Part shown: positions 13,162-19,126 of the stretch, piece by piece
Position numbering within the stretch: position 1 is the stretch's first letter
How the letters are laid out: each line of letters begins with the position of its first letter
DNA from: Ignavibacteria bacterium
Lineage (GTDB): Bacteria > Bacteroidota > Ignavibacteria > Ch128b
Direction: 5' to 3'
Assembly: GCA_016873845.1 (NCBI GenBank)
Contig: VGVX01000020.1
Coordinates: 1 to 37,674 of the forward strand
DNA length: 37,674 nt
Position numbers and translations under genes: made by a program
Notes under the pieces: generated by a model
Databases searched by the model: none
What the model was told of the DNA's origin: nothing
What the model saw: the letters and a program-made list of their open reading frames with translations, nothing else

Positions 13162-14640
13162 TTAATTTTGAATTTCTTTTCTTTTATCAATTGCCATTTT
13201 ATATAAATCGTAATACTTTTTAGCGGATGCATCCCAGGAGAAATCTCTTTTCATTCCATTTTTTTGGATCTTTTTCCAGGTTTTTTGGTCTTTGAAAACT
13301 TCAAGTGCTCTCTGGACAGTTGCGATAATGGCATTGCTTGTATACTCGTTGAAAGCGAAACCCGTCCCAGTCTCAAAACCGAGATATTCAAACTCATGCC
13401 AATCTTGCACCGTATCAGCCAAACCGCCGGTTTTTCTGACGATTGGGACCGTCCCGTACTTTAAGCTGTAAATTTGATTCAATCCACAAGGTTCGTATCT
13501 TGAAGGCATTAAAAACATATCAGCGCCGGCCTCTATCAAATGTGCAAGTTCATTATTAAAACCTAGATAGCTTGCGACTTTATTTGGAAAGGCATAAGTC
13601 ATGCTTCGGATAAGATTTTCATAACGAGGTTCTCCCGCACCGAGAATTACCCACTGGGCATCCAGTTTCATCAATTCTTTTGATGCATCGGCAAAAATGT
13701 CAAATCCTTTTTGATTTGCTAATCGCGAGATCAGACCTATCAGCGGAATATTTTTATCAAAAGGCAAATGAAGCTGAGTGAGTAAAGATTTTTTGTTTTT
13801 CTGTTTCGGAGAGAGTTTTCTTTTTGTGAAATTGAATGGAATGTGCTTATCTGTTTCAGGATCCCAAGTATCATAATCTGCGCCGTTCAACACTCCAAAG
13901 AAGTCATTTTTTCTTGTATTCAGAATTTTTTCCAGCCCGGCTCCATATTCATGAGTCAATATCTCACGGGCATACGTTTCACTGACAGTATTAATAATGT
14001 CCGCATACACTATACCAGCTTTTAGGAGACTAACGTTACCATGAAATTCAAGTGGTCCTCCTGCATAGAAAAGATTTGGCTGAAGTTCTGCTTTGCTCAA
14101 AACATTCGGCTGAAAAATTCCTTGGTACTCGATATTGTGGATAGTGAAAACGATTGCAGAGCGGCGGAACATCATATCCCAATTGTAATTATCTTTTATA
14201 TAAATTGGGAGAAGTCCGGTTGGCCAATCGTTGCAGTGAAAAACATCCGGAGTCCATCTTAACCGCTGGCAATTTTCAATTACTGCTTTTGAGAAAAGAA
14301 TGAACCGCTCATCTTCGTCTTTATCGCTAGTGTAAATTAACTGTCGATTGAAATAATGCGGACAATCAATAAAATAAATCTCAACTTTAGAATTAGGCAA
14401 AAATCCTTTGAAGACATGAACGGAGTAAGTGACTCCACCAACCCGAATCGGCAACTCGCCAATTTCCCAGCAATAATGTAGTTCAAACCTCCATTCATCA
14501 ATTGTTGGATACTTCGGCATGAATACTTTCACATCGCAATTGAGCATTTGTAATGCTTTTGGAAGCGAGCCGGCAACGTCTGCTAATCCGCCTGCTTTTG
14601 CGAATGGAACTGCTTCAGTAGTAACGAATGCTATTTTCAT
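13162..14640 (-). CDS. glgA: Glycogen synthase (ADP-glucose type, GT5)
   Basis: Transfers glucose from ADP-glucose to the non-reducing end of alpha-1,4-glucan, in cytoplasmic glycogen synthesis. 492 residues, the usual length for bacterial GlgA. The N-terminus MKIAFVTTEAVPFAKAGGLA contains the KxGGL nucleotide-sugar motif (Lys15). Other hallmarks are DVFHCNDWPTGLLP, IHNIEYQGIF, NGADYDTWDPETD, and the C-terminal donor-site motif MPSRYEPCGLNQIYSLKYGT followed by VRKTGGLADTV. The starch-synthase catalytic domain and GT1-like domain are both complete. No other glycogen genes (glgB, glgC) are in the window. Confidence 0.96.
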   Translation of the reverse strand: MKIAFVTTEAVPFAKAGGLADVAGSLPKALQMLNCDVKVFMPKYPTIDEWRFELHYCWEIGELPIRVGGVTYSVHVFKGFLPNSKVEIYFIDCPHYFNRQLIYTSDKDEDERFILFSKAVIENCQRLRWTPDVFHCNDWPTGLLPIYIKDNYNWDMMFRRSAIVFTIHNIEYQGIFQPNVLSKAELQPNLFYAGGPLEFHGNVSLLKAGIVYADIINTVSETYAREILTHEYGAGLEKILNTRKNDFFGVLNGADYDTWDPETDKHIPFNFTKRKLSPKQKNKKSLLTQLHLPFDKNIPLIGLISRLANQKGFDIFADASKELMKLDAQWVILGAGEPRYENLIRSMTYAFPNKVASYLGFNNELAHLIEAGADMFLMPSRYEPCGLNQIYSLKYGTVPIVRKTGGLADTVQDWHEFEYLGFETGTGFAFNEYTSNAIIATVQRALEVFKDQKTWKKIQKNGMKRDFSWDASAKKYYDLYKMAIDKRKEIQN

Positions 14641-14760: not shown

Positions 14761-15528
14761 TCAGCTGGATTTAGTCTCAAGCAATTTCAAAATCTTAAAC
14801 GCAGCAGCAGCCGCGCCAACTCCATTATTAATATTCACGACTGTAACTCCGGGCGAGCAGCTTGTAAGCATTGCAAATAATGCCGTAAATCCATTCATTG
14901 CAGTTCCATAACCAATGCTTGTTGGAATTGCGATTAATGGCTGATGATATAAACCAGAAACAACACTCGGTAAAGCTCCCTCCATTCCGGCAGCAACAAT
15001 CAAAATATCGCACTCTTTAATTTTATTATCTTTCGAAAAGAGTCTATGAATTCCAGCTACTCCAACATCATAGATTCTTTCAATGTCTGCGCCCAAACTT
15101 TTCAGCACCAATCCGGCTTCTTCACATGCTGCTATGTCAGTTGTACCTGCAGTGATTAATCCGATTTTGTATTTTTTGATTTTTGGAAATGGTTTTCCAA
15201 TCCTGAATGAACGCCCCTCGTTGGAATAAACTCCCTTCGGAAAAATTTTCTTTAATTCTTTGAAGTGTTTTATATGGCAGCGAGTGCCAATTACTAATTT
15301 TTTCTTTGAATAGATTTTTTTTGCAAGCTCTATAATTTGTTCAAGAGATTTATTCTCGCAGTAAATAATTTCAGGAATAAATGTTCTGTGCTCGCGTTCA
15401 ATATCAATATTCGCGAAGGAGGTCGAAATCGAAGAGCGGGTTTCATTTAGTGATTTTTCAGCTTCGTCAATAGAGAGTTTTTTCTCGATCAACTTTTCTA
15501 GTATTCTTTTTGTTTTTTGATCAGGCAT
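14761..15528 (-). CDS. larB: LarB, nickel-pincer cofactor biosynthesis carboxylase
   Basis: LarB carboxylates and hydrolyses nicotinic acid adenine dinucleotide to pyridinium-3,5-biscarboxylic acid mononucleotide, the first step to the nickel-pincer nucleotide cofactor. 255 residues. A helical N-terminal domain (about 1-118) precedes a PurE-like domain with ITAGTTDIAACEEAGLVLKS (125-144), YDVGVAGIHRL (153-163), IVAAGMEGALPSVVSGL (177-193) and IGYGTAMNGF. Cys224 in LTSCSPG matches the cysteine that holds the NaAD adduct in characterised LarB. VNINNGVGAAA closes the domain, where NIDNGFGA is usual. It overlaps larE by 8 bases. larC and a lactate-racemase-like client are not in the window. Confidence 0.92.
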   Translation of the reverse strand: MPDQKTKRILEKLIEKKLSIDEAEKSLNETRSSISTSFANIDIEREHRTFIPEIIYCENKSLEQIIELAKKIYSKKKLVIGTRCHIKHFKELKKIFPKGVYSNEGRSFRIGKPFPKIKKYKIGLITAGTTDIAACEEAGLVLKSLGADIERIYDVGVAGIHRLFSKDNKIKECDILIVAAGMEGALPSVVSGLYHQPLIAIPTSIGYGTAMNGFTALFAMLTSCSPGVTVVNINNGVGAAAAAFKILKLLETKSS

Positions 15529-16333
15529 TTTCGATTTGTTCTTTTATTGCATGGTTCAGTTTTCCGGATTTAAATCCTTCGTCATCAATTTCAATATTTT
15601 CATAGCCGATGTTTTTAAATTCATCTTCAATCTCATCGTAGAATGATTTTAGTCTTTCAACATCGAAGTTGTCAACTTCAATTTTTGCTGAATTATCATA
15701 ATGCCGAACACGGACGTTTTTAAATCCAAAATTTCGAATAAACTTTTCAGCTTGTGCAATCATGCTAAGCGACTTGGCATCGATGAAAGTCCCATAGGGG
15801 ATTCGTGATGATAAACACGGAGCCGATGGCTTATCGTGATTTGGAATCCCATAAAATTCAGCTGCATCTCTTACATCTTGTTTTGTGAATCCACACTCTA
15901 TTAATGGAGAACGAATTTTATTCTCTTCCGCTGCTATTCTTCCCGGTCGATAATCGCCAAGATCATCAGCATTTGCTCCATCTAGCACAAAAGGAATATT
16001 TCGTTTCTCGGCAATAGCGAGCAAACGATTATATAATTCCGATTTGCAGTAGTAGCATCGGTTTATCGGGTTAGCAGCATAATTTTCGATTTCTAATTCA
16101 TTGTATTCGATTTCTTCATAATTGAATTTATATTTCTCTGCTAAACTACGTGCAAGTTCAACGTCTTCGTTGATAATAGTTTCTGTGCGAGCAAGAACGA
16201 TTAATGCTTCCTTGCCAAGAACTTTATTTGCAGCAAACGCAATCAGAGTGGAATCCACGCCTGCCGAGAATCCAATAATAACTCGGCCATAATTTCGAAT
16301 CGTATTTTCAAGTAGTTCAATTTTATTGTTCAT
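15521..16333 (-). CDS. larE: LarE, sulfur transferase for the nickel-pincer cofactor
   Basis: ATP-pyrophosphatase that adenylates and thiolates the LarB product before nickel insertion by LarC. 270 residues. The PP-loop is IIGFSAGVDSTL (19-30), and VLDGANADDLGDYRPGRIAA (116-134) and SAPCLSSRIPYG (170-181) are family hallmarks. Cysteines are at 93 and 96 (NRCYYC) and 173 (APCLSS). Single-cysteine LarE sacrifices the last of these as the sulfur donor, whereas a subgroup with three conserved cysteines binds a [4Fe-4S] cluster and is catalytic. The three visible here suggest the cluster type. First gene of larE-larB, with a TAnnTTTG promoter upstream. Confidence 0.93.
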   Translation of the reverse strand: MNNKIELLENTIRNYGRVIIGFSAGVDSTLIAFAANKVLGKEALIVLARTETIINEDVELARSLAEKYKFNYEEIEYNELEIENYAANPINRCYYCKSELYNRLLAIAEKRNIPFVLDGANADDLGDYRPGRIAAEENKIRSPLIECGFTKQDVRDAAEFYGIPNHDKPSAPCLSSRIPYGTFIDAKSLSMIAQAEKFIRNFGFKNVRVRHYDNSAKIEVDNFDVERLKSFYDEIEDEFKNIGYENIEIDDEGFKSGKLNHAIKEQIENA

Positions 16334-16525: not shown

Positions 16526-16562
16526 CTAAGTAGTTTTTCATAAAGGAGAAAATAAAAGAAAG

Positions 16563-16772
16563 ATGGATTTTTTTAACTCTTGGCTTCCATTTCTTTATCT
16601 ATATGGAATCGGGGGCGCGTTCTTCGGCTTTGGTTTATATATTTTAGTTAGAAGCAAAGCTCTAAATTTGAAAAATAAACTTCATGAGAAATGGATGCGC
16701 TATTTGGTTTTTGGGTTTTTCTACATGATGGCAATTCATTTTCTATTGATTGTTTTAGCTTTGTACCTATAA
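16563..16772 (+). CDS. Small two-helix membrane protein A, symporter-associated
   Basis: 69 residues, almost entirely membrane-embedded. Helix 1 is about 6-28, containing LYLYGIGGAFFGFGLYILV. A basic loop (RSKALNLKNKLHEKWMR) follows, and helix 2 is about 46-68 (YLVFGFFYMMAIHFLLIVL). It is clearly paralogous to the next gene: both share Y-x-Y-x-x-GG-x-FF-x-x-GL, a Lys-rich loop and FGFFY-x-M-x-x-H-x-LLI. AAAGGAG lies 14 bases before the ATG. Position at the head of a sodium:solute symporter operon suggests an accessory subunit. It differs from the DUF4212 small symporter subunit as I know it. I do not recognise a named family. Confidence 0.82.
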   Translation: MDFFNSWLPFLYLYGIGGAFFGFGLYILVRSKALNLKNKLHEKWMRYLVFGFFYMMAIHFLLIVLALYL

Positions 16773-16810
16773 TTAATATTTCAATATGAAATAAAAGAAA
16801 GCAGCGTTTT

Positions 16811-17023
16811 ATGACAGCAGTTCTGGAAATTTGGATTTCTTATTTCTACATGTATTTGGTAGGCGGAATATTTTTCGTAATTGGTCTGCTTATAACTCAC
16901 AAAGCCGGATCGATGACCTTGAAGAAAAAAAATCATCGATACTATTTTAGACTTTTAATATTTGGTTTCTTTTATTTTATGATACTACACGCACTTTTAA
17001 TTTTTGCAGGATTATATTGGTGA
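16811..17023 (+). CDS. Small two-helix membrane protein B, symporter-associated
   Basis: 70 residues, paralogue of the gene before it. Helix 1 is about 8-30 (YFYMYLVGGIFFVIGLLI), the loop is HKAGSMTLKKKNHRYYFR, and helix 2 is about 48-69 (LLIFGFFYFMILHALLIFAG). The conserved pieces are the GG motif in helix 1, the FGFFY start of helix 2 and a helix-2 His. The 13 bases AAATAAAAGAAAG upstream (16789-16801) are repeated exactly before the first copy (16550-16562), so gene and leader were probably duplicated together. The symporter ATG follows 3 bases after its stop, which points to tight translational coupling and a shared complex. Function inferred from context only. Confidence 0.82.
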   Translation: MTAVLEIWISYFYMYLVGGIFFVIGLLITHKAGSMTLKKKNHRYYFRLLIFGFFYFMILHALLIFAGLYW

Positions 17024-17026
17024 TTT

Positions 17027-19126
17027 ATGAATAACATTCACAGCATTGGAACTGGAATAGATTGGATTGTAATGGCAGTTTATTTTATTGCCATTATGTT
17101 GTTCGGAAGTTATTTCGGACGTTACAATCGTACTACAACCGATTTCTTTTTTGGCGGGAGAAGATTTGCTTGGTGGCTTATTGCGATGTCAATTGTAGCA
17201 ACAGGTGTCGGCAGCCATAGCTTTATAAAATATTCAGCAAAGGGATTCGAACACGGTATCTCTTCGACAATGGCGTATATGAATGATTGGTTCTTCGTTC
17301 CATTCTTCATGTTTGGCTGGCTTCCGATTTTAGTCTATACAAAAATCAGATCTATCCCGGAATATTTTGAAAAACGTTTCAGTCCATCCGCAAGATTTTT
17401 AGCGACACTTCTGCTGCTACTTTACATGGTCGGATACGTCGGAATTGGATTTCTAACAATGGGCAAAGCGATTCTTCCGCTTCTTCCACCGAGTTTTGAT
17501 TTTGGAATTTTTCAATTCGATGTTACATTGATGGGACTGATCATCGTTATCGCATTTATTACAGGCGCCTACATAACATTCGGCGGTCAAACTGCAGTTA
17601 TCTTCACTGATCTTCTCCAAGGTTTCATTCTGATTTTTGCAGGTATGTTCGTTTTTCTTTTGGGCATAGACTATGTCGGTGGATTTCAAGTTTTCTGGAG
17701 TGTTCTCCCAACCGAATGGAAATTACCACTTGCAAAGTTTAACACGCCACCAGATTTTAATTTCGTCGGAATCTTTTGGCAGGATGGAGTTGCTGGCTCC
17801 ATTGGATTTTTATTTATGAACATGGGGCTAGTGATGCGTTTCATGTCAACAAAAAGCGTTGACGAGGGACGAAAAGCCGCTGCATTTAATATACTTTTTA
17901 TGCTTCCGCTCTCTGCGATAGTTGTCGGAAATGCCGGCTGGATTGGTAAAGCAATTTCGATTACAAGCCCTGATGTTGTAAGCCCGAACACTCATCCTGA
18001 TCAAATTTTTGTTGTAGTTGCAAATGTTATCGCTCAGCCTGGAGTGTTTGGATTTATAATGGCAGCGCTAACTGCAGCTTTAATGTCAACGGTCGATACT
18101 TTGATAAATGCAATTGCGGCTATCTATATAAATGATATTCATCGCCCTGTAAAGAAATGGTTGAAAAAGCAGTCTTCATCCTTTAAGAAGGAAGACAAAC
18201 GAGAATTGTTTGCCGCAAGAATTGCCTCGATAGTGTTTACTTCTGTTGGTGTATTGGCTGTAATTCCTTTTAGTCAATTCCCTACGGTCTATGAAGCTCA
18301 TGGATACTTTCATTCAACTCTTACACCGCCGCTTGTTGTAGCAATATTTTTCGGAGTTCTTTGGAAAAGATTCACACCTGCGGCAGTGATCACAACATTT
18401 ATTGCAGGCGTTGCAATGATGATGCTTGGTGCATATTATCCAAATCCGTTGATCGCAATCTTTGATCATGGTACACCGATGGATCCAAAGCATCCCTATA
18501 TCTATATTGGAGCGTTATATAATACTTTCGTGTGTGTGGCAATTGGAGTTGTGGTTGCTTTTACTACAAAGCAACAAAGACGATTAATAAAGAAATTACG
18601 CGATAAGAAAAACGACCGCGGAATAATGGTCGTTGTTACGTTTATTATCGCAATTATCTTCAGTGCAATAATTTTTAATGCCGCCAGTTTAGCTGTTCTG
18701 TTAATCTTAAGTCTGACTTTAATTGCATTAGTCGCTCTTGCATCGACTTATTATATAAAATATGATGAAAACGAAAAGACGGAAGGATTAACTATTTGGT
18801 CAATTGAAAAAGCTAAAGAATTCTTCAAGGGGGGAAAGGTAAATGAGAAGGAAGGAAAGGTCATTAAAGTCCAATGGAAAATTAAAGATGATGAAGATGA
18901 TGATACGGTCAATTGTTCAAAGAGCGATATGAAAAAAATGTCCGCAGAAGTCGGCGACCTAGTTTATTTGTGCGATGCAAGAAAGATTTTCGGCGGGCTC
19001 AAATCCATTCACTCTGTATATGGCAAACCACATGATGAAGATGGGGTTGTTTATATAACTAAGGATCAGAAAAAAACTGGTATATTCGTGAAGGGTAAAA
19101 AGCTTACTGCTGAGAAAGAGATGTAG
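17027..19126 (+). CDS. Sodium:solute symporter (SSS family) with soluble C-terminal tail
   Basis: Inner-membrane secondary transporter of 699 residues with the LeuT-like SSS core. TM1 starts at DWIVMAVYFIAIMLFGSYFG, then DFFFGGRRFAWWLIAMSIVA, IRSIPEYFEKRFSP, GGQTAVIFTDLLQGFILIFA (about 186-205) and LMSTVDTLINAIAAIYINDI (about 355-374), all typical family motifs, including the Ser/Thr-rich Na+ site region in TM8. About 13-15 hydrophobic segments extend to about residue 580. A charged tail of about 95 residues follows (605-699; SVYGKPHDEDGVVYI near the end), which is not part of the basic SSS fold. Substrate unknown. It is cotranscribed with the two small membrane proteins. Confidence 0.92.
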   Translation: MNNIHSIGTGIDWIVMAVYFIAIMLFGSYFGRYNRTTTDFFFGGRRFAWWLIAMSIVATGVGSHSFIKYSAKGFEHGISSTMAYMNDWFFVPFFMFGWLPILVYTKIRSIPEYFEKRFSPSARFLATLLLLLYMVGYVGIGFLTMGKAILPLLPPSFDFGIFQFDVTLMGLIIVIAFITGAYITFGGQTAVIFTDLLQGFILIFAGMFVFLLGIDYVGGFQVFWSVLPTEWKLPLAKFNTPPDFNFVGIFWQDGVAGSIGFLFMNMGLVMRFMSTKSVDEGRKAAAFNILFMLPLSAIVVGNAGWIGKAISITSPDVVSPNTHPDQIFVVVANVIAQPGVFGFIMAALTAALMSTVDTLINAIAAIYINDIHRPVKKWLKKQSSSFKKEDKRELFAARIASIVFTSVGVLAVIPFSQFPTVYEAHGYFHSTLTPPLVVAIFFGVLWKRFTPAAVITTFIAGVAMMMLGAYYPNPLIAIFDHGTPMDPKHPYIYIGALYNTFVCVAIGVVVAFTTKQQRRLIKKLRDKKNDRGIMVVVTFIIAIIFSAIIFNAASLAVLLILSLTLIALVALASTYYIKYDENEKTEGLTIWSIEKAKEFFKGGKVNEKEGKVIKVQWKIKDDEDDDTVNCSKSDMKKMSAEVGDLVYLCDARKIFGGLKSIHSVYGKPHDEDGVVYITKDQKKTGIFVKGKKLTAEKEM

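Follow-up and report, generated by a model that had tools for sequence, protein, structure and literature searches.

Small membrane hairpins encoded with a subfamily of SSS symporters as probable dedicated partners of the transporter

Two short genes that precede a sodium:solute symporter (SSS) gene in an Ignavibacteria bacterium very likely encode dedicated membrane-hairpin partners, or subunits, of one subfamily of Na+-coupled SSS symporters (SLC5-like, LeuT-fold). We favor this reading, which is drawn from comparison of sequences, because the small proteins and the symporter co-occur, their genes are linked in operons in three phyla, the two are naturally fused in one genome, and the small proteins give no DUF4212 profile match. 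In bacteria, little is understood of the small proteins that accompany SSS/SLC5 transporters; that SSS symporters can have small partners was already known, and what is new here is a dedicated, previously unnamed small-subunit family. The locus lies in a stretch of 37,674 nucleotides, referred to as the window, from a genome of 2.98 Mb in 162 contigs, and its features are collected in Table 1.

Table 1. Features of the small-protein and symporter locus, in window coordinates
Feature	Position	Strand	Description and evidence
13-base leader AAATAAAAGAAAG, copy 1	16550..16562	+	Exact match; abuts small gene 1
Putative small subunit gene 1	16563..16772	+	69 aa, two-helix hairpin, basic loop
13-base leader AAATAAAAGAAAG, copy 2	16789..16801	+	Exact match; 9 bases 5' of small gene 2
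Putative small subunit gene 2	16811..17023	+	70 aa, paralogous two-helix hairpin
SSS (PF00474) LeuT-fold symporter core	17027..18790	+	PF00474 match; vSGLT/SiaT relatives; Foldseek matches to SGLT2-MAP17 and SiaT
Symporter conserved C-terminal domain	18791..19126	+	Alignment; AF2 pLDDT 86; Foldseek double-psi beta-barrel (DPBB) matches; without Pfam match

The symporter reading frame (17027-19126, + strand) encodes 699 aa and is preceded by the two short frames, with gaps of 38 bases between small genes 1 and 2 and of 3 bases between small gene 2 and the symporter. The junction at the shorter gap reads TGA-TTT-ATG and thus keeps small gene 2 and the symporter in the same frame. Two exact copies of AAATAAAAGAAAG were found in the window against 0.07 expected, and none of 100 shuffles contained two. 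Since the repeat stands at different distances from the two start codons (0 bases for small gene 1 and 9 bases for small gene 2), it is likely a trace of tandem duplication, an explanation as probable as that of a control element. An Rfam search returned no matches, the promoter scan found no more sites than shuffles did, and the terminator-like excess from the promoter/terminator scan fell within genes. Just upstream of the small genes, and divergent from them, are LarB and LarE of nickel-pincer cofactor biosynthesis (window 14761-16333), with a glycogen synthase beyond them (13162-14640).

Alignment of the two small proteins gave 45% identity over 62 aligned residues (E = 1e-16), and both contain a GG pair in helix 1, a basic loop, and the pattern FGFFY-x-M-x-x-H. 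The paralogy and these motifs, which had been proposed in a preliminary description of the locus, were therefore borne out, as were its two frames of 69 and 70 residues ahead of an SSS symporter, the spacing between the genes, and the duplicated 13-base leader. In a whole-length alignment of 39 sequences, made up of relatives adjoining related symporters, the residues W7, Y12, Y14, G17, F21, G51, and H59 (numbered as in small protein 1) were invariant. When remote members were included, bringing the alignment to 51 sequences, W, Y-x-Y, GG, F, G, and H were still invariant or nearly so, and about 50 sequences retained the motif W-x-P-x-x-Y-x-Y-x-x-GG, followed by the F, G, and H. In 92 of 93 family members, the most basic part of the protein was the loop that joins the two helices; by the positive-inside rule, both ends of the hairpin would therefore be placed in the periplasm and the basic turn in the cytoplasm.

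No family scored above threshold when the small proteins were scanned against Pfam and NCBIfam, and the window's own pair had no Pfam match at E ≤ 1, so that profile searching turned up no known unrelated family in either collection. A search of the PDB with the profile of the small family gave no matches, and no paper on the family was found in the open-access literature. The small proteins very probably represent a previously unnamed family, absent from Pfam and NCBIfam, that spans three phyla. Members from the phylum of a Bdellovibrionaceae genome (L196-L207, L211, and L212) carry an extra N-terminal hydrophobic segment, for a total of about 105 residues, and are likely a three-helix version of the protein.

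The distribution of the small proteins follows that of the symporter closely. Among 294 genomes of the window's own class, the symporter (a P0003 match at E ≤ 1e-60) was present in 37, and the small protein, found by profile search, was present in the same 37 (Fisher p = 7e-48, a value that ignores shared ancestry). A 38th genome with a small-profile match (G274, open frame of 941 aa) was discarded, the match being a chance one inside an unrelated 938-residue multidomain protein and not a fusion. Of the small genes that could be assessed, 44 of 49 in this class lay in a symporter operon. The proportions were 11 of 12 across 246 genomes from the phylum to which a planctomycete genome belongs and 17 of 17 across 241 genomes from that of the Bdellovibrionaceae genome, which gives 72 of 78 over the three phyla. 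Because only the small protein served as seed in these searches, the choice of loci does not explain the linkage, with the qualification that the members used to build the profile were themselves linked to symporters. The six remaining small genes were away from any symporter; they represent only a few extra copies of homologues, and every genome that holds one also holds a small-symporter operon. One symporter copy (L140) had no adjoining small gene. One of the six small genes without a symporter beside it (L172, 1854-2051, in a planctomycete) stands before a polysaccharide flippase-like gene, and that genome also carries a normal small-symporter operon (L171). In another genome, two small-symporter loci near both ends of one long contig (L124 and L125, G225:C1) encode the same small protein and have broken symporter frames, and are possibly an assembly overlap or paired pseudogenes.

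A natural fusion was found in one genome of the planctomycete phylum (G418), in the form of a single reading frame of 706 aa (L165, 1555-3675). Its residues 1-65 match the small family (E = 3e-23), and a symporter match (E = 1e-196) starts at residue 99 and extends to include the C-terminal domain. This fusion is the strongest indication of a physical partnership, and it shows that the C-terminus of the hairpin can sit at the N-terminus of the symporter. It fixes which end of the symporter the hairpin joins, and it would offer structural biologists a ready single-chain complex.

The fusion also bears on a different role for the small protein, that of an assembly or stability factor (an insertion chaperone, or protection from FtsH) that acts in biogenesis only and is no lasting subunit. 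Such roles are known for other small transporter partners, including MgtU, MgtS, and FeoC (PMC10710835), and the order of small gene then symporter, with a spacing of 3 bases or an overlap, fits co-translational assembly. The fused protein, however, holds the hairpin permanently attached, and both helices and the loop contain conserved motifs. We regard an assembly factor as possible but on the unlikely side, and on balance prefer a lasting subunit.

The large protein matched the SSF family (PF00474; E = 2e-40, 139 bits against a cut-off of 22.8), and its core was nearest by sequence to vSGLT, SiaT, and SGLT1. Foldseek comparison of an AF2 model gave SGLT2-MAP17 as the top match and also returned SiaT and SGLT1, with E-values down to 1e-15, which points to a LeuT-type fold. 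In an alignment read by eye, the Na2 positions A62, I65, A361, S364, and S365 of vSGLT correspond to A, V, A, S, and T in the symporter, and this conservation makes Na+ coupling likely. The galactose-binding Q69 (Gln69) in the sugar site of vSGLT corresponds to S (Ser), which makes a galactose-type pocket unlikely. The symporter ends in a conserved domain of 111 residues (589-699) with an AF2 pLDDT of 86 and no Pfam match, for which double-psi beta-barrels were the best Foldseek matches (E about 1e-6, TM 0.65). The predicted fold of this domain resembles the barrel of the VCP N-domain. Judged from the topology, the domain is probably cytoplasmic, and a regulatory role for it is a guess.

Neighboring genes were considered as a guide to the substrate and set aside, as neither the pst phosphate operon seen in Ignavibacteria nor the HAD-like gene seen in planctomycetes is common across the phyla. 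The symporter operon stands next to a divergent pst-like phosphate ABC transporter operon in 12 to 15 loci from Ignavibacteria (L033, L035, L038, L047, L048, and L049 among them); it has no such neighbor in the window. The HAD-like gene, which starts with an FDGVWT-type motif and has a sub-threshold Pfam match only, is located upstream of the small gene and the symporter in 14 planctomycete loci, all from one group (for example, L165 636-1547 and L176 27-941). A potassium-channel-like protein with TrkA domains directly precedes the small-symporter pair in two planctomycete genomes (L167 952-1938 and L168 1138-2115).

Because small gene 2 and the symporter share a frame, the two could be folded as one read-through chain, with an AF2 alignment made up of the window chain, 23 relatives read through in the same way, and 15 symporter-only rows. 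The model had a pLDDT of 82.6 and a pTM of 0.82, scores that describe the hairpin and the symporter and not the contact between them, and pLDDT ran from 83 to 89 along most of the hairpin helices.

The family, its linkage and co-occurrence with the symporter, the fusion, the topology bias, and the Na2 site are read from the sequences themselves; from there we infer physical binding, an effect on transport, and a stoichiometry. The hairpin would be synthesized just before the symporter and would pack on the periplasmic-side N-terminal helix of the symporter, the site of its covalent fusion in one planctomycete. Like MAP17 for SGLT2, it may be required for the symporter to fold stably or to go through its transport cycle correctly. 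Where the small gene has been duplicated, as in the window and some other Ignavibacteria, one symporter could use two hairpins, either as alternatives or simultaneously.

Most genomes have a single small gene per symporter. Two small genes for one symporter were found in 8 of the 37 class genomes, the window's included (about a fifth), as four tandem pairs and as four cases with one copy in the operon and another elsewhere; further tandem pairs were seen at L033, L035, L036, L048, and L060. In a FastTree phylogeny of the small proteins, the upstream copies of tandem pairs formed one clade (support 0.99), and the downstream copies together with dispersed extra copies formed a second (about 0.79 to 0.90). 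Small protein 2 of the window grouped with the single and downstream copies of its relatives. Small protein 1 grouped with its ortholog from the same genus (0.99); its placement outside the main clade was weak, as was its affinity to the upstream members of other tandem pairs. Pairwise dN was 0.09 to 0.23 with large or saturated dS for the copies measured, which covered both types (small gene 1 against its same-genus ortholog, dN 0.09 with saturated dS), and both types therefore appear to be maintained by purifying selection. By these comparisons, the two-subunit state does exist in part of the lineage and is old there, but it is not general.

The preliminary description had proposed a hetero-oligomeric symporter with two distinct small subunits as a candidate undescribed transport system. 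Much of the broader claim holds, in that a dedicated, unnamed small-subunit family accompanies the symporter in 37 of 37 genomes of the class and is fused to it in one planctomycete; the two-subunit part fares less well, as the eight genomes with two small genes stand against a majority of relatives with one, and for many relatives only one of the pair is conserved. It is doubtful that the two distinct hairpins act together, with one symporter and one of each forming a true three-protein transporter. The single copy in most genomes and the low support (about 0.75) for the place of the window's pair in the two groups argue against such a complex, while the separation of upstream and downstream copies into two tree groups with a conserved order, the retention of the second copy type elsewhere in several genomes, and the purifying selection on the measured copies are in its favor. 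A more elaborate and unlikely form would be a three-part Na+ symporter in which the two paralogous hairpins are bound together or exchanged as alternative regulatory subunits and the cytoplasmic double-psi barrel serves as a further control element.

Short two-helix proteins beside SSS symporters are known from other families. In DUF4212 (PF13937), the gene of a short protein with two helices accompanies that of an SSS symporter; in DUF485 (PF04341), such a gene stands beside it, as with YjcH, which is encoded with ActP. DUF3311 (PF11755) is a short protein beside, and co-regulated with, an MctP-type SSS pyruvate symporter (PMC9100948). The small proteins of the window share the size class, the two helices, and the gene position of these families, and one remote planctomycete member had a DUF485 match below threshold, with 15 bits where 28 are required (E = 0.024). 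That they are divergent members of DUF4212, DUF485, or DUF3311 is nonetheless very unlikely. No window protein matched any of the three in Pfam, and profile-profile comparison with hhalign gave probabilities below 1% throughout: 0.1% for DUF4212, 0.2% for DUF3311, and 0.3% for DUF485, which was represented in the comparison by two sequences only, E. coli YjcH among them. The charge pattern is also reversed, with a basic loop between the helices here and basic ends in DUF4212 and DUF485. The motifs differ as well: DUF4212 has GFxLGFWFAQQGS between its helices, DUF485 has GIPIGIG, and the motif of DUF3311 is again different. The earlier statement that the small proteins do not resemble DUF4212 is consistent with these results; PF13937 had no matches in the whole host genome, which does carry a separate, genuine DUF485 gene. 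DUF997 (PF06196, YhdT with PanF) had no match in the Pfam scan of the window proteins. Finally, the notion that the small frames encode independent membrane peptides (toxin or stress peptides, for example) that are chance neighbors of the symporter, suggested by their short, hydrophobic nature and the few copies elsewhere in the genome, is scarcely credible, being already contradicted by the perfect co-occurrence, the operon order in three phyla, and the fusion.

As dedicated partners of a symporter, the hairpins invite comparison with MAP17 (PDZK1IP1), which has one transmembrane helix and is not known to be encoded in an operon, and to which no sequence relation was found. Human SGLT2 (SLC5A2) needs this small partner for robust expression and activity (PMC12605011). 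The likeness is that in both cases a symporter of the SSS/LeuT-fold type goes with a small membrane protein, SGLT2-MAP17 being the very complex that was the top structural match of the window symporter. With vSGLT, SiaT, and SGLT1, the window symporter has PF00474 and the Na2 positions in common, and it differs from them in forming a separate subfamily whose C-terminus bears an additional double-psi barrel domain. For annotators, the small proteins would be a new family. They would also provide a bacterial counterpart to SGLT2-MAP17, which raises the medically important question of how SLC5 transporters are controlled by small partners. Taken together, these comparisons strongly indicate that the small proteins would act like the DUF4212-type, DUF485, DUF3311, and MAP17 partners, yet lie outside those families.
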